Origin: a virus
Virus record (IMG/VR): IMGVR_UViG_3300024518_001893
Location: 1 to 43,612 of that record
DNA: 43,612 bases
Direction: 5' to 3' (one strand)
Shown: one piece after another, positions 1,184-43,612 of the stretch
How the letters are laid out: every line of letters begins with the position of its first letter
Position numbering within the stretch: position 1 is the stretch's first letter
Position numbers and translations under genes: made by a program
The notes under the pieces: generated by a model
What the model was told of the DNA's origin: nothing
The model's input: only the letters and a program-made list of their open reading frames with translations
The model's database searches: none

Positions 1184-1381
1184 GTGGTAATCCACAGGAT
1201 CTGCGCGGGATGCGCGAACAGATACAGGGATGGGGATGAGTGTTCCGAGGTAGAGCTGGGGTCGAGTGACCTGCTGGTTGATGGGTGCCCACACACACAC
1301 ATAATGATGGACCCCGTGGGGGAGGGGGTTAGCCCCCCCCGGTACTGGGTACTGCCGAGTTCAGAGAACCGCAATTTTTGA
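1184..1381 (+). CDS. Possible small cysteine-rich protein (doubtful)
   Basis: A GTG-started frame of 65 codons with CAGC at residues 7-10, a third cysteine at about 19 and CPHTH further on, which looks like a zinc-binding fold. There is only a weak GGTGG upstream, and the frame runs through inverted repeats and a G/C-run hairpin (GGGGG-TTAG-CCCCC around 1324-1337). The first third is duplicated at 43516-43612, where the window ends. It may be a real divergent early gene or non-coding DNA that happens to be open. Confidence 0.3.
   Translation: MVIHRICAGCANRYRDGDECSEVELGSSDLLVDGCPHTHIMMDPVGEGVSPPRYWVLPSSENRNF
1188..1196 (+). promoter_or_regulatory. DnaA-box-like 9-mer TAATCCACA
   Basis: Differs at one position from the classic TTATCCACA box. 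It sits beside an A/T-rich stretch (1030-1180) and a 6-bp inverted repeat (GTGGAT 1174-1179, ATCCAC 1190-1195). With no replication initiator gene visible, a host-DnaA-dependent origin is conceivable, but a single imperfect box is weak evidence. Confidence 0.25.
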
Positions 1382-1491
1382 ACAAAAAACGCGTTCAAAA
1401 CCAACAACTTACGACGTAGGTCTATGATCCACCTACATTTTTGTTATTCTTAGCCTGATTTTGTTCAAACTTATTCAAAACGGGGTGAGGT
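1282..1491. promoter_or_regulatory. Upstream region of packaging operon with two inverted repeats
   Basis: Apart from the doubtful frame above, this stretch holds TTTTGAAC (1376-1383) facing GTTCAAAA (1393-1400), and GTAGGT (1416-1421) facing ACCTAC (1431-1436), the latter followed by ATTTTTG. TTCAAA occurs again twice just before the terminase gene. I read it as the control region of the plus-strand head operon. No convincing -35/-10 pair is visible, and the second hairpin could attenuate transcription. Confidence 0.4.
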
Positions 1492-1857
1492 ATGGTCGCT
1501 GCAAAGAAAAAAGACGGTCGAGGAGGAGCACGACCTAACTCTGGGCCGAAAAAAGAGGCTTTATCGGTCAGGCAACTGAAGCAGATTCAGAAGGTCGCCG
1601 AGGATCTGGCAAAAGAGTTTGGCATGCCGGTTATCGAGGTCGTTGGTCGGATGGCATACGACATTGATGCTCCGCGCCGGGATCGGTTGGCGGCATCGAA
1701 GTTATTCTTGGATAAGAGCACCATCTCTGTCACAGAAGGTGGTGAGGCGGACAAGCTGAATGGGCCGGCAGTATATCTACCAGAGCAGTATGACAACGTG
1801 CTGAAGATGGTTGGGCGCGAGGAAGAGCCGAAAGAGGACGATGACGCGAAGAAATGA
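1492..1857 (+). CDS. terS: Terminase small subunit
   Basis: 121 residues. The N-terminus has the basic GRGGARPNSGPKK motif that opens many small terminase proteins. A predicted helical DNA-binding region follows, then an acidic and lysine-rich tail (EEEPKEDDDAKK) that probably contacts the large subunit. It recognises the packaging site and loads the large subunit. GGGTGAGGT just before the ATG serves as ribosome binding site. Its stop overlaps the large-subunit start (ATGA), so the two are translationally coupled. Confidence 0.85.
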   Translation: MVAAKKKDGRGGARPNSGPKKEALSVRQLKQIQKVAEDLAKEFGMPVIEVVGRMAYDIDAPRRDRLAASKLFLDKSTISVTEGGEADKLNGPAVYLPEQYDNVLKMVGREEEPKEDDDAKK

Positions 1858-3332
1858 GTGCCGCTCTTGCATGGGTTCCTCACGTTGGGGCGCAGAACGA
1901 ATTTCTGAAGCGAAACGAGTTCGAGGTTCTATTTGGCGGATCTGCGGGTCCGGGTAAAACTGACTGTCTGGTTGCGGCGTTAACCCGGCATATCGACAAA
2001 CCGACTTACCATGGTCTTCTGATCAGGCGGACGTTCCCGCAGCTTCAGGAAATCATCGATCGGTGTTTTCGTCTTTACCCTAGTCTAGGGGGCAAATACA
2101 AAACCACTGACAAGCGTTGGACGTTCCCAAGTGGAGCTGTGATCGATCTTGGTCACATGCAGCATGAGAATGACAAATACAATTATCAGGGCAAGGAATA
2201 TCACTGCATCGGCATAGATGAGTTGACGCAGTTCACGATCACGCAGTACACGTATTTATTCTCGCGACTGCGATCGACAGACCCGGACATACCGGTTCAG
2301 ATTCTTGCGACAACGAATCCGGGCGGCATTGGTCACAACTGGGTGAAGGAAAGATTCCAGCCTGACGTTCGACCACTGAAGACGCATCACGATCCGTACT
2401 CCGGGTTGAGTCGGGTTTTTGTGCCGGCAACGATCGAGGACAACCCGACGTTGTTTGACAACGACCCGTTGTATCTGGCGCGGCTTGAGTCGCTACCGGA
2501 GATCGAGAGGAAGAGACTTCGGCACGGCATCTGGGATGCGTTCGAGGGTCAGGTATTCACCGAATTGTCGCAGATGATTCATGGGTGCGAACCGTTTGAT
2601 ATTCCACCGGAGTGGGAACGCTACTGTGTTCTTGACTGGGGTTATTCGAGTCCGTTCTCGGTTGGTTGGTACGCGGTAGATTACGACAACGTGCTGTACC
2701 GGTATCGAGAGTGGTACGGGTGCAAGCGGGAGGAACTGGGGGAAGAGGGCGAGAACAGTCTTCAGGGTTTGCGACTGCAAGCTTGGGAGGTCGCCGAGGG
2801 GATCTTGTTGCGGGAGCGCGCTGCCAACGAGAAGATCAGACGCAGAGTTGCTGATCCATCGATCTGGCATCCCAGACCTGAGTTCCGAAAGAAAGAAGCA
2901 CAGGGCATGACGATCGAGGAAGATTTCACCCGTGCTGGTGTACACTTCACGAAGGCCGATAATGATCGGTTGCACGGCAAGCTTCAGGTCCACAAGCGAC
3001 TGCAGCTGATGCCGGTTGTTGATGATGATACCGGCGAGATAACTAACGAAGAACCGCAGGTTCAGATCTTCAATACGTGCAAGGGGTTTTGGCGCACGAT
3101 GCCGAACATGGTTGAGAGCAAGAAGAACCCGGACGATGTAGATACCGATCAGGAAGACCATGTTTACGATGATTTTCGTTACATGTGTATGGCACGACCG
3201 ATCAGACCGAGGAAGGTAGAGCAGATGCCGCAGGGCAGTTTCAGGGCAGAACGCGAAAGACTTATCAGGGCAAAGAAATACGCAAAACGTCACGGGATGT
3301 CCGTTGATGCCGCGTACAGGAAAATTCGGTAA
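1854..3332 (+). CDS. terL: Terminase large subunit (ATPase and nuclease)
   Basis: 492 residues, normal for the family. Walker A is GGSAGPGKT at 28-36, Walker B is CIGIDE at 118-123, and the coupling motif TTNP is at 153-156. The C-terminal RNase H-like nuclease starts at VLDWGYSS, with D261 as its first metal ligand. The enzyme cuts concatemeric DNA and pumps it into the procapsid through the portal. It overlaps terS by 4 nt and the portal gene by 1 nt. The packaging mode (headful or defined ends) cannot be read from the sequence alone. Confidence 0.95.
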   Translation: MSAALAWVPHVGAQNEFLKRNEFEVLFGGSAGPGKTDCLVAALTRHIDKPTYHGLLIRRTFPQLQEIIDRCFRLYPSLGGKYKTTDKRWTFPSGAVIDLGHMQHENDKYNYQGKEYHCIGIDELTQFTITQYTYLFSRLRSTDPDIPVQILATTNPGGIGHNWVKERFQPDVRPLKTHHDPYSGLSRVFVPATIEDNPTLFDNDPLYLARLESLPEIERKRLRHGIWDAFEGQVFTELSQMIHGCEPFDIPPEWERYCVLDWGYSSPFSVGWYAVDYDNVLYRYREWYGCKREELGEEGENSLQGLRLQAWEVAEGILLRERAANEKIRRRVADPSIWHPRPEFRKKEAQGMTIEEDFTRAGVHFTKADNDRLHGKLQVHKRLQLMPVVDDDTGEITNEEPQVQIFNTCKGFWRTMPNMVESKKNPDDVDTDQEDHVYDDFRYMCMARPIRPRKVEQMPQGSFRAERERLIRAKKYAKRHGMSVDAAYRKIR

Positions 3333-5131
3333 TGGCGAAGAAAGACTTACAGAAACTATGGGAAGGCAGACTTCAGGAGGCGCATGAGGCGCACAAGAAG
3401 TGGAAAGACGCTTTCAAAGTTGACACTGGCATCCAATACTTTGAGGGGCAGAACAACCCCGGTGTTCCCGCGGGTGAGTGGATAAACATCAACAAGATTT
3501 ATTCACACCTGCAAGCGCAGTTGCCGAAACTGTATTCGGTCGATCCGTATTTCTACGTCAAGGTGAAGAAGTCTTTCGAGGTCAGTGTCGAGAACATCAT
3601 CGAGATGGAACGGCGCGGAACGGTTCGACAAGCAATGTTGAATTACCTCAAGGTCGAGCTGGAGTTGAAGATAAAAGCCCGGTTGTCAATTCAGGATGCA
3701 CACTTTGCATTCGGTGTTATCAAAACCCGTCGAGCCTCTGATCTTGAAGAGCACCCACATGCCGGCGAGCCAATCCTTGATGAAGATGGTAAGGAACTGA
3801 CCGATCAGGAAACCGGCGAGCCACTGATTTACCCGGATGAGATTCCGGTCAACGAACGCTACGAAATTGAACGTGTACACCCCGATGATTTTCGTTGGGA
3901 TGCGGATGCCGGCCCACTGAAAAACGAGTGGAGTTGGTTGGGTTGTCATACGCAAATGACAAAACAAGAAGCACTGGATGACCCAAGGTTGAATAGTGCT
4001 GCCGTGGAAAAGGTCAAGGCAAAGAAAAAGGAATCCAACGATAAAGAACCCAAGCATGGGCTTTCCCGGTTCGTTGCAACGAAGGAAAACGATGAAGAGG
4101 ACATTCTCGACATCTGGGAAATATACGACTTGAAAAAAGAAGAATGGTTAATGCTTGCTGAAAATGGCGTTGATCTTCTTATCAAACCCAGAAGTATGCC
4201 CCCCGGTATTGAAGAGCATTCGTTCTCAATTTTGCGTTTCACGTTGAGGGATCGGAGTCCATATCCGATCCCGCCGGTCTTTAATGCAATCGATCCACAA
4301 CGCGAGATGTCGTTGTCGAGGTCGATGATCATGACGCACAGAAAGCGATTCAATCGCAAGTACGAGGTTGTGGTCACGAAGCTGGAGGATGAGCACACTG
4401 AGCTTGAGAAACTAGAGGTCGGTGATGATGGCACCATCATTCGTGTCATGGCAAACGGTGCAATTACTCCCATCAAGGATGCGCCGCTGGATCAGGCAAA
4501 CATGATGGAGATCCGCGAGCTTGGCAACGACATTGTCGAGGCTATGGGTACGCCTGACATTGCTCGTGGAATTGCCAGTGCAGATAGTGCTACTGAGGCA
4601 GGACTGTTGGATGCGCGTCTGGGTATTCGCGAAGGCGATCGCATGTCGATGGTGGTGGACTTCGTCAAAGATGTTGCGCGCAAGCTCGACATGCTGGTGC
4701 AGTTCCATATCAATGGTGACGAGGCTGTAAAGATCACCGGACCTCAGGGCGAGGAATGGGCAACGGTCAGGAAGCAGGACTACGAAGAGATCAAGGGTGA
4801 GTTTGAGTACACGGTAAATGTCGGTGCCACTCAGCCCAGATTGCCTGACATTGAGCGCGCGCAGTTGACGGCGTTCCTGTCTCAGGTGGTGATTCCGTTC
4901 CCGCAGATCCTGACTCAGCCGGCGATTGTGAAGCAGTTCGCGGAGCTATTTCATATCGAGGACGATGGTTTTGTTGAGGGTATGATTGCTCTGGGCAAGC
5001 AGATCCAGAGCGGTGAAGTACAGGCACCGGGGCAGCAGGGTGGTGGTCCCAGTGATAACCCAATCGCCCAGATCATGGGAATGGCAGGTGGTGCCGGTGG
5101 TGGCAACGCTAACGGTGGTGGTGCTCAATGA
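3332..5131 (+). CDS. Portal protein
   Basis: 599 residues, directly after terminase and within the size range of P22-like and other podoviral portals. The N-terminal region carries the conserved-looking INKIYSHLQAQLPKLY and DPYFYVK segments; the middle is charged and helical. The last 30 residues are rich in glycine, asparagine and glutamine (GGAGGGNANGGG), a flexible tail typical of such portals. It forms the dodecameric vertex through which DNA enters and leaves. It starts at the last base of the terL stop codon and ends overlapping the next gene by 4 nt. Confidence 0.9.
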   Translation: MAKKDLQKLWEGRLQEAHEAHKKWKDAFKVDTGIQYFEGQNNPGVPAGEWININKIYSHLQAQLPKLYSVDPYFYVKVKKSFEVSVENIIEMERRGTVRQAMLNYLKVELELKIKARLSIQDAHFAFGVIKTRRASDLEEHPHAGEPILDEDGKELTDQETGEPLIYPDEIPVNERYEIERVHPDDFRWDADAGPLKNEWSWLGCHTQMTKQEALDDPRLNSAAVEKVKAKKKESNDKEPKHGLSRFVATKENDEEDILDIWEIYDLKKEEWLMLAENGVDLLIKPRSMPPGIEEHSFSILRFTLRDRSPYPIPPVFNAIDPQREMSLSRSMIMTHRKRFNRKYEVVVTKLEDEHTELEKLEVGDDGTIIRVMANGAITPIKDAPLDQANMMEIRELGNDIVEAMGTPDIARGIASADSATEAGLLDARLGIREGDRMSMVVDFVKDVARKLDMLVQFHINGDEAVKITGPQGEEWATVRKQDYEEIKGEFEYTVNVGATQPRLPDIERAQLTAFLSQVVIPFPQILTQPAIVKQFAELFHIEDDGFVEGMIALGKQIQSGEVQAPGQQGGGPSDNPIAQIMGMAGGAGGGNANGGGAQ

Positions 5132-5391
5132 TTTACACCTACCGCTGTCTTTCCTGCAAAGAGGTCACCGAGGCAACCCGGTCTGTTGCAGATCGCAATA
5201 ACCTGCCAGAGTGCGAACATTGCGGTGGTGTTACGAAGAAAATTGTAGCACCATACGTGGTACATCCAGATTTTGAAGTATATTACGATGACAACTTAGA
5301 GACCCACATACAGAGCAAACAGCATCGCAAGAAAGTAATGAAGGAACGCGACGTTGTTGAGATGTATGGAAAGGGTTGGAGTAGTTGGTAA
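5128..5391 (+). CDS. FmdB-type zinc-ribbon protein between portal and scaffold
   Basis: 87 residues. C7-x2-C10 and C29-x2-C32, with the YxYRC start and ECEHCGG centre, match the FmdB/CxxC regulatory zinc-ribbon family. The C-terminal half is helical and basic (KQHRKKVMKERD). It overlaps the portal stop by 4 nt. Similar ribbons lie in head operons of other phages, but their job is unknown; a chaperone or nucleic-acid-binding role is possible. Confidence 0.75.
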   Translation: MIYTYRCLSCKEVTEATRSVADRNNLPECEHCGGVTKKIVAPYVVHPDFEVYYDDNLETHIQSKQHRKKVMKERDVVEMYGKGWSSW

Positions 5392-24508: not shown

Positions 24509-24847
24509 ATGAACGACAAGGCGTATGCTGAGAAGCGTGATGGACACAAATGGAATCCTGTTCTTATTGCTGTCATCAGCAGCATTATCGGCTCTGGTGG
24601 TGGTGTTGCTTTGGTATTTAATACTCCCTTTGGGCAGTCTTTTGCTCGACCAGATCCATACACTGGGACACAAGCTGCATCACTGATCAGAAGGTTTGAC
24701 ATGGTTGAGTCTTCCATGAACAAGCACATCAGGGAGCATCCTGATCTGAGCAACCGGTACGATCGCCGCATTGCGACCCTTGAAGCTCAGTACGAAATCA
24801 TCATCAAGAATCAGGATCGGATTCTGGGTCGGTTGAACGCCCGGTAA
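24509..24847 (+). CDS. Single-span membrane protein with coiled-coil tail
   Basis: 112 residues. A basic start is followed by a hydrophobic, glycine-rich segment (PVLIAVISSIIGSGGGVALV) and a charged helical tail (DRRIATLEAQYEIIIKNQDR). It could be a lysis accessory or superinfection factor. Its last 44 nt overlap the end of the converging minus-strand gene at 24804, so both proteins share DNA at their C-termini. Confidence 0.5.
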   Translation: MNDKAYAEKRDGHKWNPVLIAVISSIIGSGGGVALVFNTPFGQSFARPDPYTGTQAASLIRRFDMVESSMNKHIREHPDLSNRYDRRIATLEAQYEIIIKNQDRILGRLNAR

Positions 24848-25046
24848 CATCATTCACCTCTGCTATGGCTTTATTCAGTTCAAAGCTCTTTACTGCATCC
24901 TGTACGCGGTGCATATAATTTGTAAGTTTAGCGTTTTCAATCTCTAACTTCTCGATGCGGTCTGCGGCTTCCTTACGCTGTATCCAGCAATTATGTAGAT
25001 CATTGCCAATCGGTTTACGCAATCGTTTAATCAGACTCATCATCAT
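24804..25046 (-). CDS. Last mini-gene of modular array, tail altered
   Basis: 80 residues: MMMSLIKRLRK, a helical stretch, then the RIEKLE hinge and a short module ending in IAEVND. Unlike its relatives it does not stop after the tag but continues VTGRSTDPESDPDS into the converging gene at 24847. The start follows the junction GCAGAGGTG by 5 nt and sits in a run of three ATG codons. The end of the array looks eroded or fused to foreign sequence. Confidence 0.6.
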   Translation of the reverse strand: MMMSLIKRLRKPIGNDLHNCWIQRKEAADRIEKLEIENAKLTNYMHRVQDAVKSFELNKAIAEVNDVTGRSTDPESDPDS

Positions 25047-25392
25047 TCACCTCTGCTATTACCTTCAATGCGGCTCTTGCGTAGTCGCCTATTTGGTACT
25101 CGTACTGATGGACAAGTTGTGACGCAAATTGCATGTGCAATAGGTCACGGTCTAACCCTTCTTCTTCGATGGCCCGCATCCACTCCAACACCGCATAGTC
25201 ATCGTTAGCGTCATTCTCAGGATCAGGTAGGTCGTCAATCCTCTGGCCCATTGCGCCGTCAGGGGTGCGCCATCGCGTGACCTCACCGGCTACATTGGTA
25301 TAGCTTGACATAGGTTTCCACCCCATTGCCTCTGCTAATTTGATTCGGTCACTCATCATCATCCATATCTTGATTCGGTCACTCATCATCAT
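25027..25392 (-). CDS. Modular array protein, type A (copy 2)
   Basis: 121 residues. Shares its body with the gene at 26090-26413: LAEAMGWKPxSSYTNVAGEV, TRWRTPDG, DLPDPENDANDDYAVLEWMR and the end YEIGDYARAALKVIAEV. The two copies differ in the region after LEWMR. The N-terminus carries a tandem duplication (MMMSDRIKIW then MMMSDRIKLA), visible in DNA as a 30-bp repeat near 25345-25392; translation could start at 25392 or at the inner copy. Function unknown. Confidence 0.7.
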   Translation of the reverse strand: MMMSDRIKIWMMMSDRIKLAEAMGWKPMSSYTNVAGEVTRWRTPDGAMGQRIDDLPDPENDANDDYAVLEWMRAIEEEGLDRDLLHMQFASQLVHQYEYQIGDYARAALKVIAEVNDDESD

Positions 25393-25570
25393 TCACCTCT
25401 GCTAGTGCTTCCCACTCGTCTTCATTTACCCATGTTCGAGAATTGCACTTGGAGCATTTAACGTGCATCAATAATCCACCGCCCAAACCTGCTTTTTGGG
25501 TGAATTTAGGCTCCCCGCCATTGCCGCTATTACTGATCCATATGTGTTCGCAATCGAATTTATCCATCAT
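25379..25570 (-). CDS. Modular array zinc-ribbon mini-protein
   Basis: 63 residues: MMDKFDCEHIWISNS, then VKCSKCNSRTW and the end ALAEVNDDE. The cysteines suggest a zinc ribbon. It has the junction tail but no RIEKLE hinge. It overlaps the downstream gene by 14 nt at the junction. Likely a different cargo module captured between the same junction repeats. Confidence 0.6.
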   Translation of the reverse strand: MMDKFDCEHIWISNSGNGGEPKFTQKAGLGGGLLMHVKCSKCNSRTWVNEDEWEALAEVNDDE

Positions 25571-25571
25571 T

Positions 25572-25895
25572 TTAATTCACCTCTGCTATGGCATCTAGGT
25601 ACTTGTCACGCCAACGTGTAGCAGCATCTACCCAATCACCCGATGCTAAATTCCAATCGCCACCATAAGCGTTAGCAATAATTCCCCATGCCAGTTCCTC
25701 ACTTAACTCTAGCTTCTCGATGCGCTCCTCGTACCTCAACTCGGCCTGACAGTGTTCTTCAATCATGTTCATGTTAAGTTGCTTCTGGCGCTCAATCTCT
25801 GCGTCTTTGGCTTCAATCCGACAGTCCACGCACCTACAAGTCTTGCGGCAAGGGACCATCCCACTTCCAACATTCGATTGATCGTTACTCATCAT
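25572..25895 (-). CDS. Modular array protein, type B (copy 1)
   Basis: 107 residues. N-terminal half with cysteines (CRKTCRCVDC) and a coiled-coil region; then RIEKLELSEELAWG and a C-terminal half ending LDAIAEVN. The C-terminal half is nearly identical to that of the gene at 26986-27261 (150 bp with two mismatches), whereas the N-terminal halves are unrelated. The stop codon follows AEVN directly (AATTAAAATG at the junction). Confidence 0.7.
   Translation of the reverse strand: MMSNDQSNVGSGMVPCRKTCRCVDCRIEAKDAEIERQKQLNMNMIEEHCQAELRYEERIEKLELSEELAWGIIANAYGGDWNLASGDWVDAATRWRDKYLDAIAEVN
25575..25724 (-). repeat. 150-bp duplicated C-terminal module (copy 1)
   Basis: Matches 26995-27144 at a constant offset of 1420 with two mismatches. 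Its edges are the junction repeat on one side and the RIEKLE-coding CTTCTCGATGCG on the other, so the duplicated unit is exactly one protein module. Confidence 0.9.
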
Positions 25896-26109
25896 TCACC
25901 TCTGCTATGGCTCCCTCAAGATATGACAAGTAATTGGCATCGGTAATTGTAATTGCGTCAATTGCGGTTACTTTCTTGGCAGCCACCAACACCCGTTCCA
26001 GCTTCTCGATGCGGTCAATCAGCTCGGTAACGGTGTGCCTATCCTCTGGTTCCATTCCCATTGCGTCATCGGCAATGACCCTTGCTCGTTCAATCAGGTT
26101 GCTCATCAT
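25885..26109 (-). CDS. Modular array protein with RIEKLE hinge
   Basis: 74 residues: MMSNLIERARVIADDAMGME, DRIEKLERVLVAAKKVTAI and the tail YLEGAIAEVNDE. Helical throughout. The start shares its opening (MMSxLIER) with the gene at 26400, whereas the C-terminal module is unique. It overlaps the next mini-gene by 11 nt. Confidence 0.65.
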   Translation of the reverse strand: MMSNLIERARVIADDAMGMEPEDRHTVTELIDRIEKLERVLVAAKKVTAIDAITITDANYLSYLEGAIAEVNDE

Positions 26110-26413
26110 CCACCTCTGCTATTACCTTCAGTGCTGCTCTGGCGTAGTCGCCTATTTCATAAGCCCACATTGATTCAGATTTCAAAACCGTAAAAAATTC
26201 ACCATTGACTTCAGCGCCCCGCATCCACTCCAGCACCGCATAGTCGTCGTTAGCGTCATTCTCAGGATCAGGTAGGTCTTCAATCCTCTGGCCCATTACG
26301 CCGTCAGGGGTGCGCCATCGCGTGACATCAACCTCACCAGCTACATTGGTATAGCTTGACGTAGGTTTCCACCCCATTGCCTCTGCTAATTTGATTCGGT
26401 CACTCATCATCAT
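26090..26413 (-). CDS. Modular array protein, type A (copy 1)
   Basis: 107 residues, related to the protein at 25027 over most of its length, but with GEVDVTRW for GEVTRW and a different insert (GAEVNGEFFTVLKSESMWAY) before the shared YEIGDYARAALKVIAEV. The insert position may mark a third recombination point. It ends EVDDEQPD, a few residues past the usual tag. Confidence 0.7.
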   Translation of the reverse strand: MMMSDRIKLAEAMGWKPTSSYTNVAGEVDVTRWRTPDGVMGQRIEDLPDPENDANDDYAVLEWMRGAEVNGEFFTVLKSESMWAYEIGDYARAALKVIAEVDDEQPD

Positions 26414-26996
26414 CCACCTCTGCTATGGCATCAAAAGCCCGTCGTAAATCAAGCAGCGTAATCTTCACTGCCGGGTCATTAAAGTTTCCATGGGCATCTG
26501 CGAATGGCTTGAGAGCAGCCTCTAGCTTCTCGATGCGGTCCTTATCTGCCTTCCATTCCGGTAGGTCGCGCATTGTTTCTGCCAGCCGAGACTCACAACA
26601 TTTGAATAGTTCAGTATCATCCACCTCTGCTATAGCTTCATGTGCCATTCGTAGGTCGTGCAGCGTAAGTGCAAGGTCTGGTCGATCAGAGTCAATCGCA
26701 TCTGCAAATGGCTTGAGGGCGGCCTCTAACTTCTCGATGCGCTCTGCCTGTAAATACCATTCGTGGTCATCACTTTCTAGTACCTCAATGTGGTCATTCA
26801 GGCTTTCTATTTCTTCCTCGTACTCTGCCTGTTCTACACGTAGGCACTCTATCTCTTTGTTCGCCTTACTCTCTAGCACCTTAATGTGGGCATTAAGGCG
26901 TTCTATCTCGTCTGCTGCATCCCAATCTAGCTTTGTTTGCTGCCTATAATTTCGTTGCTTATGCGCTCTCAATCGTTCAATCAGGCTACTCATCAT
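26400..26996 (-). CDS. Double modular array protein (two mini-genes fused in frame)
   Basis: 198 residues. The first unit runs from MMSSLIERLRAHKQRN through long coiled-coil segments to RIEKLEAALKPFADAIDS and ends AIAEVDD at the internal junction 26622-26632. There the frame stays open (D-T-E-L-F) and a second unit with RIEKLEAALKPFADAHGN ends AIAEVDDDE. The internal junction keeps its AGAGGTG and ATGATA, but the frame that ATG opens closes after about 30 codons. It shows how arrays can yield longer proteins. Confidence 0.75.
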   Translation of the reverse strand: MMSSLIERLRAHKQRNYRQQTKLDWDAADEIERLNAHIKVLESKANKEIECLRVEQAEYEEEIESLNDHIEVLESDDHEWYLQAERIEKLEAALKPFADAIDSDRPDLALTLHDLRMAHEAIAEVDDTELFKCCESRLAETMRDLPEWKADKDRIEKLEAALKPFADAHGNFNDPAVKITLLDLRRAFDAIAEVDDDE

Positions 26997-27261
26997 TCAC
27001 CTCTGCTATGGCATCTAGGTACTTGTCACGCCAACGTGTAGCAGCATCTACCCAATCACCCGATGCTAAATTCCAATCTCCACCATAAGCGTTAGCAATA
27101 ATTCCCCATGCCAGTTCCTCACTTAACTCTAACTTCTCGATGCGGGTATCATATTTATCGTATTGAATACCGCACTGTTTCAGTCGTAGGGTCAGGCGTT
27201 CGACCTCCTCTGCCAGCCTCGCATTGTCGGCAATATAGAAGTCTCTCTTGTCACTCATCAT
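26986..27261 (-). CDS. Modular array protein, type B (copy 2)
   Basis: 91 residues: MMSDKRDFYIADNARLAEEV, a leucine-rich coiled coil, then RIEKLELSEELAWG and the same C-terminal module as the gene at 25572. First mini-gene with the full tag (AIAEVNDE). Its start overlaps the end of the lipoprotein gene by 11 nt. Confidence 0.7.
   Translation of the reverse strand: MMSDKRDFYIADNARLAEEVERLTLRLKQCGIQYDKYDTRIEKLELSEELAWGIIANAYGGDWNLASGDWVDAATRWRDKYLDAIAEVNDE
26995..27144 (-). repeat. 150-bp duplicated C-terminal module (copy 2)
   Basis: Second copy of 25575-25724, two mismatches. The abrupt end of similarity at the codons for RIEKLE shows that the copy was made by recombination between short shared sequences, not by duplicating a whole gene. 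Confidence 0.9.
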
Positions 27262-27451
27262 CCACCCCGTCTATTTGCGGTCTGCACTGAATCCGGTAGC
27301 CGCCGCTAACTTCGTGCAACATCACCGATCGCGTCCCTGCCGCAATACACTCCCTGTGTGCAATGATCAGTTCACTGTTGTTCTGCCCCTTCTCACAGGA
27401 CGATAAGGCGACCAAATAGACACATGCCAAAACGACCAATAGAAGTCTCAC
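27251..27451 (-). CDS. Small predicted lipoprotein
   Basis: 66 residues. A hydrophobic signal (LLLVVLACVYLVA) ends in the lipobox LSSC with C19 as the predicted lipidated residue; the mature part has two further cysteines. It begins with GTG overlapping the upstream stop. Its end, GVDDE, resembles the array tag, and its 3' end overlaps the first array gene. Candidates are an outer spanin or a superinfection-exclusion lipoprotein; neither is shown. Confidence 0.65.
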   Translation of the reverse strand: MRLLLVVLACVYLVALSSCEKGQNNSELIIAHRECIAAGTRSVMLHEVSGGYRIQCRPQIDGVDDE

Positions 27452-30674: not shown

Positions 30675-30700
30675 GATGTGTTCCTCGCAGGTGAGACTGA

Positions 30701-34468: not shown

Positions 34469-34776
34469 GCAAGCCAAGATACAAATTAGCGGCGGATGAA
34501 AACCAACAGGAGATAGTCAATGCCCTCGAAAAAATCGGATGCTCGGTCTTCATTCTCGGAACTCCCGTGGACCTCCTTGTTGGATTCGGAAAGCGAAATT
34601 TCCTCATCGAGGTCAAATCCAGAAATACCGACTACGGAAAAAAAGACCGTGGCACCCCGACGCAAAGGCAGTTTTTTACGTCTTGGCGCGGACAGGTTCG
34701 CAAGGTCTGGACAGCAGAAGAAGCAATCAAGTTAGTAACGGAGGCGTATGGTCGGAAAATCAAAACCCGCGAATAA
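34465..34776 (+). CDS. PD-(D/E)XK nuclease-like protein (VRR-NUC/HJC-like)
   Basis: 103 residues from a TTG overlapping the previous stop. DENQQEIVNALEKIGCSVFI opens the fold; PVDLLVGFGKRNFLIEVKS supplies the D36, E49 and K51 of the PD-(D/E)XK site; TPTQRQFF follows. It may resolve branched DNA or cut flaps before packaging. It is shorter than most family members but complete in motifs. It overlaps the next gene by 29 nt. Confidence 0.7.
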   Translation: MSKPRYKLAADENQQEIVNALEKIGCSVFILGTPVDLLVGFGKRNFLIEVKSRNTDYGKKDRGTPTQRQFFTSWRGQVRKVWTAEEAIKLVTEAYGRKIKTRE

Positions 34777-35173
34777 AGCGGGAAAATGGCGCATGTCGCT
34801 CATAAAAGAGCAAGCTTGGTGTGTGCCCTGCATCCTGAATTTCACGCCAAACCGGTCGGCGACCGAGGTCCACCACCCTGTTTCGGGCAATAAACGCACC
34901 GGAAAGACGATGGGACTGTGCGGATGGCACCACCGCGGCATCAATGAGGGCGCTATGTTCAGGCAGGACATGCAGAAAATGTTTGGTGCCTCACTGGCAC
35001 ATGGGTCGAGAGAGTTCGTGCGTGTGTGGGGATCTGAGGACGTTCTGGTACAGCTTCAGAATCAATTGATTGATATTTGGGTGGAAACAGGTGGTTGGGA
35101 TCAGTACAATTTACCGCGAGATGTGCAATACGAAATCCGAAAGCAATGGCAGACACTCCAAGGACTGCGGTGA
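34748..35173 (+). CDS. HNH nuclease resembling RecA-dependent Ref
   Basis: 141 residues. CVPC (25-28), EVHHPVSGN around H42/H43 and GLCGWHHRG (56-64) match the zinc and HNH-type active site of the Ref family of P1 and other phages, which cuts DNA where host RecA forms a displacement loop. No phage recombinase is visible, which fits use of host RecA. GGAGG lies before the ATG. Confidence 0.7.
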   Translation: MVGKSKPANKAGKWRMSLIKEQAWCVPCILNFTPNRSATEVHHPVSGNKRTGKTMGLCGWHHRGINEGAMFRQDMQKMFGASLAHGSREFVRVWGSEDVLVQLQNQLIDIWVETGGWDQYNLPRDVQYEIRKQWQTLQGLR

Positions 35174-43331: not shown

Positions 43332-43612
43332 GTCTATGTCCTCGCAGGTGAGAGTCAAATGTATCAGGTTACTGATTAATTACAAGTAAGTGTATGTTTA
43401 CTAACAGACAAATGTACGTTAAATCACACATACAAAATAACGTACATTGATAGAAATCAACCAGTTACACAGGGCAAAATAGTTGTAAATACCTGCAATT
43501 AATTGGTGGATCCGCGTGGTAATCCACAGGATCTGCGCGGGATGCGCGAACAGATACAGGGATGGGGATGAGTGTTCCGAGGTAGAGCTGGGGTCGAGTG
43601 ACCTGCTGGTTG
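43327..43612. repeat. Right copy of control-region repeat, reaching the window end
   Basis: 98% identical to 995-1280. It includes the leader, the operator-like ATCAGGTTACTGAT (43363-43376), the inverted repeat 43413-43446, the DnaA-like 9-mer and the first third of the doubtful plus-strand frame. The sequence ends inside the repeat, as expected when a map has run once around. Confidence 0.9.

Follow-up and report, generated by a model that had tools for sequence, protein, structure and literature searches.

An array of small mosaic phage genes probably reshuffled at a repeated translation start signal

The Start-Associated Sequences (SAS) of cluster K mycobacteriophages are short, nearly invariant repeats at the Shine-Dalgarno (SD) sequence, a few bases before the ATG of many small non-structural genes (PMC3203893). 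They are conserved beyond the bases that pair with rRNA, may include the preceding gene's stop codon, and are dispersed over the non-structural half of the genome, mostly outside open reading frames, with the consensus GGGATAGGAGCCC (PMC3203893). In translational coupling by ATGA or TGATG overlaps, stop and start codons overlap and the SD lies in the upstream gene (PMC6728339). Here we describe a phage locus that bears comparison with both, found in a 43,612-nucleotide stretch of IMG/VR virus record IMGVR_UViG_3300024518_001893 (hereafter the window).

A sequence-only reading of the window had reported nine exact minus-strand copies of a short element, TAGCAGAGGTG. All nine are present, clustered in 2.2 kb (24855–27008), and allowing up to one mismatch revealed none beyond these in the window. 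Dinucleotide shuffles, also with one mismatch allowed, averaged 0.57 copies and never exceeded 3. All copies share one reading frame, which gives I/L-A-E-V. When the proteins were held fixed and synonymous codons were redrawn from the array's own codon usage, 2000 trials averaged 0.32 junctions, with none above 3, against the 9 observed; the junction is therefore conserved at the DNA level. The phage also carries another repeated start element, CCTGCGAGGA, in 11 places.

The nine junctions link eight small overlapping genes (g1–g8) that close a leftward operon, all on the minus strand. The preceding gene, g0 (27251–27451; 66 aa), has a lipoprotein-like product and terminates in a diverged version of the junction, TAGACGGGGTG (IDGVDDE), which doubles as the g1 leader. 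The 91-aa g1 (26986–27261) combines an N-terminal part, RIEKLE and a WGIIANAYGGDW module, and AF2 predicts two long helices for it (pTM 0.37). Junction copy 1 (26998–27008) spans the end of g1 and the start of g2 (26400–26996; 198 aa), which holds two RIEKLEAALKPFADA modules joined through copy 2 (26622–26632). Because reading runs on past copy 2 into an apparent next cassette, with neither a stop nor a clean start, we regard g2 as two fused cassettes in one reading frame. Copy 3 (26415–26425) lies at the g2/g3 boundary, and g3 (26090–26413; 107 aa) carries a DDYAVLEWMR...GDYARAALKV module for which AF2 gave a mean pLDDT of 73.5, BFVD matches were weak and the PDB offered no fold match. Copy 4 (26111–26121) leads into g4 (25885–26109; 74 aa), made of an LIER N-terminal part, RIEKLE and an unrelated C-terminal part, and copy 5 (25897–25907) into g5 (25572–25895; 107 aa), in which a new N-terminal part precedes the same RIEKLE-WGIIANAYGGDW cassette as in g1. 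At the end of g5, copy 6 (25578–25588) is followed immediately by TAA and, 1 nt on, by the ATG of g6 (25379–25570; 63 aa), a Cys-containing protein whose body is unrelated to the other array genes and has only the junction in common with them. Copy 7 (25394–25404) separates g6 from g7 (25027–25392; 121 aa), which carries the other copy of the g3 module and opens with a 30-nt repeat. Copy 8 (25048–25058) separates g7 from g8 (24804–25046; 80 aa), which has an LIKR N-terminal part, RIEKLE and an unrelated C-terminal part and runs into a converging plus-strand gene.

Searches of Pfam, PHROGs, NCBIfam and PADLOC with the array proteins returned no convincing family match, and thus gave nothing to sustain the anti-defence or host-takeover role that had been suggested for them. 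We considered kinship with the phage ABA-sandwich domain of Pfam or with lambdoid ea22-type proteins but do not claim it, because the module concerned falls below threshold for every Pfam family.

The element was proposed to serve twice, as C-terminal codons and as a ribosome binding site before an overlapping ATG, and the shared frame, the gene overlaps and the adjoining ATGATG bear this out. From g0/g1 to g7/g8, stop-start overlaps are 11, 11, 14, 20, 11, −1, 14 and 20 nt, so that seven of eight boundaries (g0/g1 counted) overlap by 11–20 nt. ATGATG directly follows 7 of the 9 copies on the 3' side and in six of these opens a listed array gene, with an overlap of 11–20 nt. The GAGGTG within the junction matches the anti-SD region; because it sits only 1 nt from the first ATG, the true start is probably the second or third ATG. 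That every copy is a junction holds for most of them, with the exception of the copy inside g2, the copy followed by TAA at the end of g5, and copy 9 (24855–24865). This last copy lies near the end of g8 and reads into its tail, probably without a real next gene, the only ORF beyond it being doubtful and antisense to the plus-strand gene.

We identified a second repeat, CGCATCGAGAAG (RIEK), present in six copies within six gene segments (26730–26741 and, beginning at 27144, 26537, 26013, 25724 and 24959, all minus strand) and lying in a predicted coiled coil. Synonymous recoding gives an expectation of 0.12 occurrences versus the six observed, and this repeat is likewise conserved at the DNA level. 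Neither this repeat nor the diverged junction ending g0 featured in the sequence-only reading.

That reading had also described the gene bodies as mostly unrelated, but duplicated modules are common to g1/g5, g3/g7 and g2a/g2b. The g1 and g5 copies (26995–27144 and 25575–25724, minus strand) form a 150-nt cassette running from CGCATCGAGAAG to TAGCAGAGGTGAAT; they are identical at 148 of 150 positions, with only 2–5 of 15 flanking positions identical. The cassette extends from the first base of the RIEK repeat to 3 nt past the junction, and the genes that host it are otherwise unrelated. The g3/g7 duplication has the junction at both borders. Because duplicated blocks start and stop on it, the junction element behaves as a module boundary, consistent with the exchange role first proposed for it. 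A feature of boundary-sequence mosaicism, homologous blocks bordered by shared short sequences, is found here in both the RIEK-to-junction 150-nt block and the junction-to-junction g3/g7 block. Divergence between duplicated modules is mainly silent (dN 0.31 and dS 0.85 for g2a/g2b; dN 0.14 and dS 0.30 for g3/g7), and because of this purifying pattern (dN < dS) the array frames look translated.

We consider it likely that the small phage genes form a polycistronic array of mosaic composition, early or accessory in role, which has expanded and been rearranged through recombination at short boundary sequences, by an annealing or a homologous route. The junction, ATAGCAGAGGTG(A/G)ATGATG, would supply the following gene with its SD (GAGGTG) and start codons, while being read as ...IAEV(N/D)D in the gene before it. 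Because the junction carries these signals, a cassette bounded by junctions would arrive with its own start signal, pass one to its neighbour and rely on stop-start coupling for its translation. The inner boundary, CGCATCGAGAAG, would allow N- and C-terminal halves to be exchanged, and the common C-terminal residues would be a by-product of a start signal read as protein. The observations behind this account are the repeats, their DNA-level conservation, the coinciding block borders, the overlaps, the purifying pattern, a single-copy relative and independent arrays; from them we infer the recombination route, the usefulness of the products to the phage and, from the layout, translational coupling. 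A Ref-like recombination enhancement nuclease (PF16786) encoded by the same phage (34748–35173, plus strand) is a possible recombination helper.

It is unlikely that the repeats are merely strong ribosome binding sites on which selection has converged, with no role as exchange boundaries. The fit of GAGGTG to the anti-SD region would agree with such convergence, as would the phage's other repeated start element and GGGGAAGAATGA in another phage (L056), where short SD ends recur at the ends of genes. The invariant stretch, however, reaches upstream of the SD, and selection on the SD alone would not require its ATAGCA part, which rests on the recombination argument. The RIEK repeat, which is not an SD, is equally invariant, and the borders of the 150-nt block fall exactly on repeats.

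Arrays with other junctions occur in other phages. The window's terminase was not found in L019, L154, L158, L163, L166, L168, L171, L173 and L175, nine of the contigs that carry LKPFA modules or tag arrays, or in the deposited complete genome MW202613.1. The L173/L168 array has the junction GAAGGAGACGGGGGATGAGTGA and the C-terminus ...ALKETGDE; the L175 array has GGAGAGAAGTGATG and ...ALNGEK, the latter present even on a Gly/Tyr-rich protein. Array proteins end in ...KVLGEKE in L171/L166 and in ...ARAALGEK in MW202613.1, and L019–L021, with three copies of ...AATEQE, are a looser case. A scan of C-termini at 169 loci found groups of at least three only in the window, L171/L172, L173 and L175. 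The RIxELEAALKPFA coiled-coil mini-gene arrays (L168, L171, L173, L175 and MW202613.1) resemble the one described here in layout, in their related coiled-coil/LKPFA module and in having an array-specific C-terminal end that overlaps the next start, but they differ from it in junction sequence and peptide. The papers we found do not describe them as a system, and array proteins from L173, L175 and L171 had no match at E 1e-3 among 50,697 phage records. Similar arrays with other junctions in unrelated viruses point to a recurring way to copy and swap small phage genes, not to a special tag.

The sequence-only reading had raised the possibility of a common C-terminal tag on proteins read by one partner; such a tag would be a functional peptide (degron, localisation signal or docking peptide). 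Retention of the frame in all nine copies and the presence of AEV near the end of all eight array genes would suit it. Yet the ends after AEV vary (NDE, NDDE, DDDE, N-stop, DDEQPD, NDDESD and a long tail), nine copies without a single synonymous change indicate constraint on the DNA, and other lineages use different peptides. Moreover, in L173 (at 3154) and L168 (at 4503) the element precedes the first array gene, where it codes for no tag, being either untranslated or read in a different frame. We judge the tag improbable.

Still less probable is a protein- or RNA-binding regulatory site for each gene, as proposed for SAS. Conservation does exceed the SD, as in cluster K (PMC3203893), but there is no candidate binder, the copies lie about 0.2–0.5 kb apart within a polycistronic array, and the copy inside the fused g2 has no start to regulate. 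Misassembly, with repeats of several related phages joined in one contig, is very improbable: the window is a metagenomic contig in which repeats, here including near-identical 150-nt ones, could mislead assembly, but the layout recurs in independent contigs and a deposited complete genome, and the modules differ by many substitutions in a coding pattern.

Among 20 records of terminase relatives, a homologous module occurs only in L018/G007. L018, whose terminase is 70% identical, has one such module at the equivalent site, without the repeat; it ends GAG GTG ATC GAA TGA, with an SD-like sequence and an ATGA overlap, unrepeated. The counter-case named in the sequence-only reading, the same genes in fixed order without the junction, is thus approached by L018 in its repeat-free module but not in its gene set and order, which differ. 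Mid-genome regions of nine terminase relatives contained no array-type junction repeat, their k-mer matches being repeats of other spacing. The proposal that the 11-mer could be traced elsewhere did not bear fruit: in 2.9 million viral contigs the exact junction, TAGCAGAGGTGRATGATG, gave four chance matches only (for example, within a capsid-like ORF). Neither the array DNA nor three array proteins matched any of the 50,697 phage records, no relative of the DDYAVLEWM module was found in genome contigs, and a search of viral contigs for the exonuclease neighbour found none. We found no close relative spanning the array (a near-identical contig, L036, covers only 1352–5330), so turnover of the array among close relatives is not directly seen.

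More tentatively, these loci could represent a previously unnamed class, in which arrays of small coiled-coil protein genes propagate themselves and a junction particular to each lineage acts as a universal cassette connector, so that inserted modules are expressed at once. On this view the design would have emerged on several separate occasions, each with its own connector, and would act as a source of new early proteins. If a translation start signal does double as a recombination border, it offers a concrete and testable route by which small genes are made and shuffled with expression intact. Many small phage genes are of unknown function and unclear origin, and the layout bears on that origin. 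For annotators, the layout is a warning that a C-terminus shared by the proteins of a phage operon can be the translated ribosome binding site of the gene that follows and not a protein motif.

The array shares overlapping stop and start codons, and an SD inside the upstream gene, with ATGA/TGATG coupling (PMC6728339), but ordinary coupling lacks an identical element of at least 11 nt at every boundary of a shuffled gene series. The systems that come closest to the array are Start-Associated Sequences and boundary-sequence mosaicism. Like SAS, the array element stands a few bases from the start codons of several genes. It differs in that TAGCAGAGGTG is unlike the SAS consensus, lies within the last coding stretch of the gene before it, and is clustered in 2.2 kb between adjacent genes that share exchanged modules; the dispersed, outside-ORF placement of SAS is better fitted by CCTGCGAGGA than by the junction. 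As in boundary-sequence mosaicism, module borders coincide with short shared sequences. Whereas that model concerns exchange between genomes at few borders, here a single genome uses one border nine times over, and that border doubles as a translation start signal.

We confirmed the nine copies of the junction repeat TAGCAGAGGTG reported in the sequence-only reading: all lie on the minus strand (24855-27008), and the window, itself an entire IMG/VR virus record, holds no tenth copy even with one mismatch allowed. They mark the ends of eight short ORFs (g1-g8, 63-198 aa; 24804-27261), neighbours overlapping by 11-20 nt with the single exception of a 1-nt gap. This array closes a leftward operon, which converges with the rightward late genes at ~24.8 kb. 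The upstream gene g0 (27251-27451) terminates with a diverged junction, TAGACGGGGTG, read as IDGVDDE, and no convincing gene follows the final copy (24855). The copy at 26622 is internal to g2, where two LKPFADA cassettes (g2a and g2b) form one ORF across it – a fusion that, in this metagenomic contig, could be a sequencing error. At the g7 start (25340-25392, minus strand), a 30-nt tandem duplication (MMMSDRIKIWMMMSDRIK) creates two sets of ATG runs.

A second, intragenic repeat, CGCATCGAGAAG, encodes R-I-E-K, mostly followed by LE, and has six copies, one per module segment in g1, g2a, g2b, g4, g5 and g8. Both repeats are conserved at the DNA level: when synonymous codons were redrawn by the codon usage of the array itself, a mean of 0.32 junctions remained (at most 3) against 9 observed, and 0.12 RIEK sites (at most 2) against 6. 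Because the RIEK repeat lacks a ribosome-binding sequence, selection for a Shine-Dalgarno (SD) sequence alone cannot account for both.

The array is a mosaic with these two repeats as its borders. Genes g1 and g5 have a C-terminal cassette in common: 150 nt, identical at 148 positions, running from the first base of RIEK to 3 bases past the junction, and identity drops to 2-5 matches per 15 on both flanks. The g3 and g7 modules are duplicates delimited junction to junction, a third module is common to g2a and g2b, and g2, g4 and g8 have a short LIER/LIKR start in common; g6 shares only the junction with other array genes.

Consistent with the array frames being coding, duplicate modules diverge most at third codon positions (g2a/g2b, dN 0.31 and dS 0.85; g3/g7, dN 0.14 and dS 0.30) and other phage contigs carry homologous modules as full ORFs. 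The array proteins had no convincing match in Pfam, PHROGs, NCBIfam, PADLOC or PDB folds, and the anti-defence or host-takeover role proposed earlier is a guess.

A terminase search identified 20 related records, none a close relative spanning the array: the best match (100%) is a 4.3-kb piece, 99.97% identical to the window, that reaches 1352-5330 only. The next (70%; L018, 35 kb) is the sole terminase relative with a homologous module – a single copy in the same convergent place, with no repeated junction. Its 3' end reads GAG GTG ATC GAA TGA, and GGAGGTGA occurs there too before the next ATG. The dual-use 3' end therefore predates the array, whose growth took place in the lineage of the window or one close to it.

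Scanning with the LKPFADA module yielded 24 viral contigs, several with tandem mini-genes bearing lineage-specific ends: ...AAALKETGDE, from GAAGGAGACGGGGGATGAGTGA, in L173 (3154-5420) and L168 (4503-5410); ...AALNGEK, from GGAGAGAAGTGATG, in L175 (3399-5270); ...KVLGEKE or similar in L171 (4833-5434), as in L172, L166 and L158; and ...ARAALGEK in the deposited phage genome MW202613.1 (L176, 1556-3442), annotated as hypothetical proteins only or not at all. The arrays of L173, L168, L175, L171 and MW202613.1 are independent tandem rows of mini-genes with RIxELEAALKPFA coils; the genes share a C-terminal end that is specific to the lineage and overlaps the start of the following gene. The element also precedes the first array gene in L173 (3154) and L168 (4503). 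At these sites the preceding ORF has already stopped or runs in a different frame, and the element is kept as a leader, not a peptide. L175 also contains a Gly/Tyr-rich repetitive ORF (GYGYGYG; 4404-4742) whose C-terminal end, KIRAALNGEK, matches the adjoining coiled-coil genes. In loci L019-L021, found via the other module, a repeat that reads AATEQE is present three times, once at an internal position like that in g2. The window's terminase was not found in ten array- or LKPFA-bearing records searched, several of which are fragments.

A series of cassettes joined by a standard connector is the reading best supported by what was observed: the sequence, the module borders, conservation at the DNA level, the coding pattern, the relative with one copy and the independent arrays. 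This connector would provide the SD and start for the following gene and the place where cassettes are joined by recombination; the common C-terminal peptide would be its protein reading. The window encodes a Ref-like recombination enhancement RecA-dependent nuclease (34748-35173, plus strand; PF16786, E 5.9e-12), and L018 presumably encodes an ERF-type annealing protein, judging by its ORF sequence. Both are only candidate recombination helpers. Along with this recombination route, we infer coupling by termination-reinitiation, which is known in general (PMC6728339).

We observed a second start-associated element in the window, CCTGCGAGGA, with 11 exact copies, all on the minus strand (beginning at 43348, 42986, 42750, 42306, 30691, 30452, 29859, 11826, 8676, 1016 and 315) and all a few bases upstream of an ATG; with up to one mismatch, the window has 14 matches versus 2.4 expected. 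This element resembles a Start-Associated Sequence. Some copies also have promoter-like sequence in common: for example, the copies at 43348 and 1016 share ~60 nt of it upstream, and those at 30691 and 11826 a promoter-like stretch, ggggttgcaata...tatcatttccctgata. The element is nearly missing from the other compared loci, with one match in the relative L018/L035. Leader repeat CCTAACAAAACAATA of the 71-kb viral contig L024 (six copies, at 369, 1101, 1784, 2135, 3209 and 4064) is possibly another such repeat, since its final two copies lie ~20 nt upstream of an ATG.

The nearest published feature to the junction is the Start-Associated Sequences of cluster K mycobacteriophages – repeats at the starts of small non-structural genes, conserved beyond the SD (PMC3203893). 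Those are dispersed and mostly outside ORFs, whereas the window's junctions lie at ORF ends in one array. Short boundary sequences are proposed sites of phage mosaicism (PMC3029335). A limited open-access literature search found no published description of a layout like the window's, which combines Start-Associated Sequences with boundary-sequence mosaicism, one border being used nine times in one genome.
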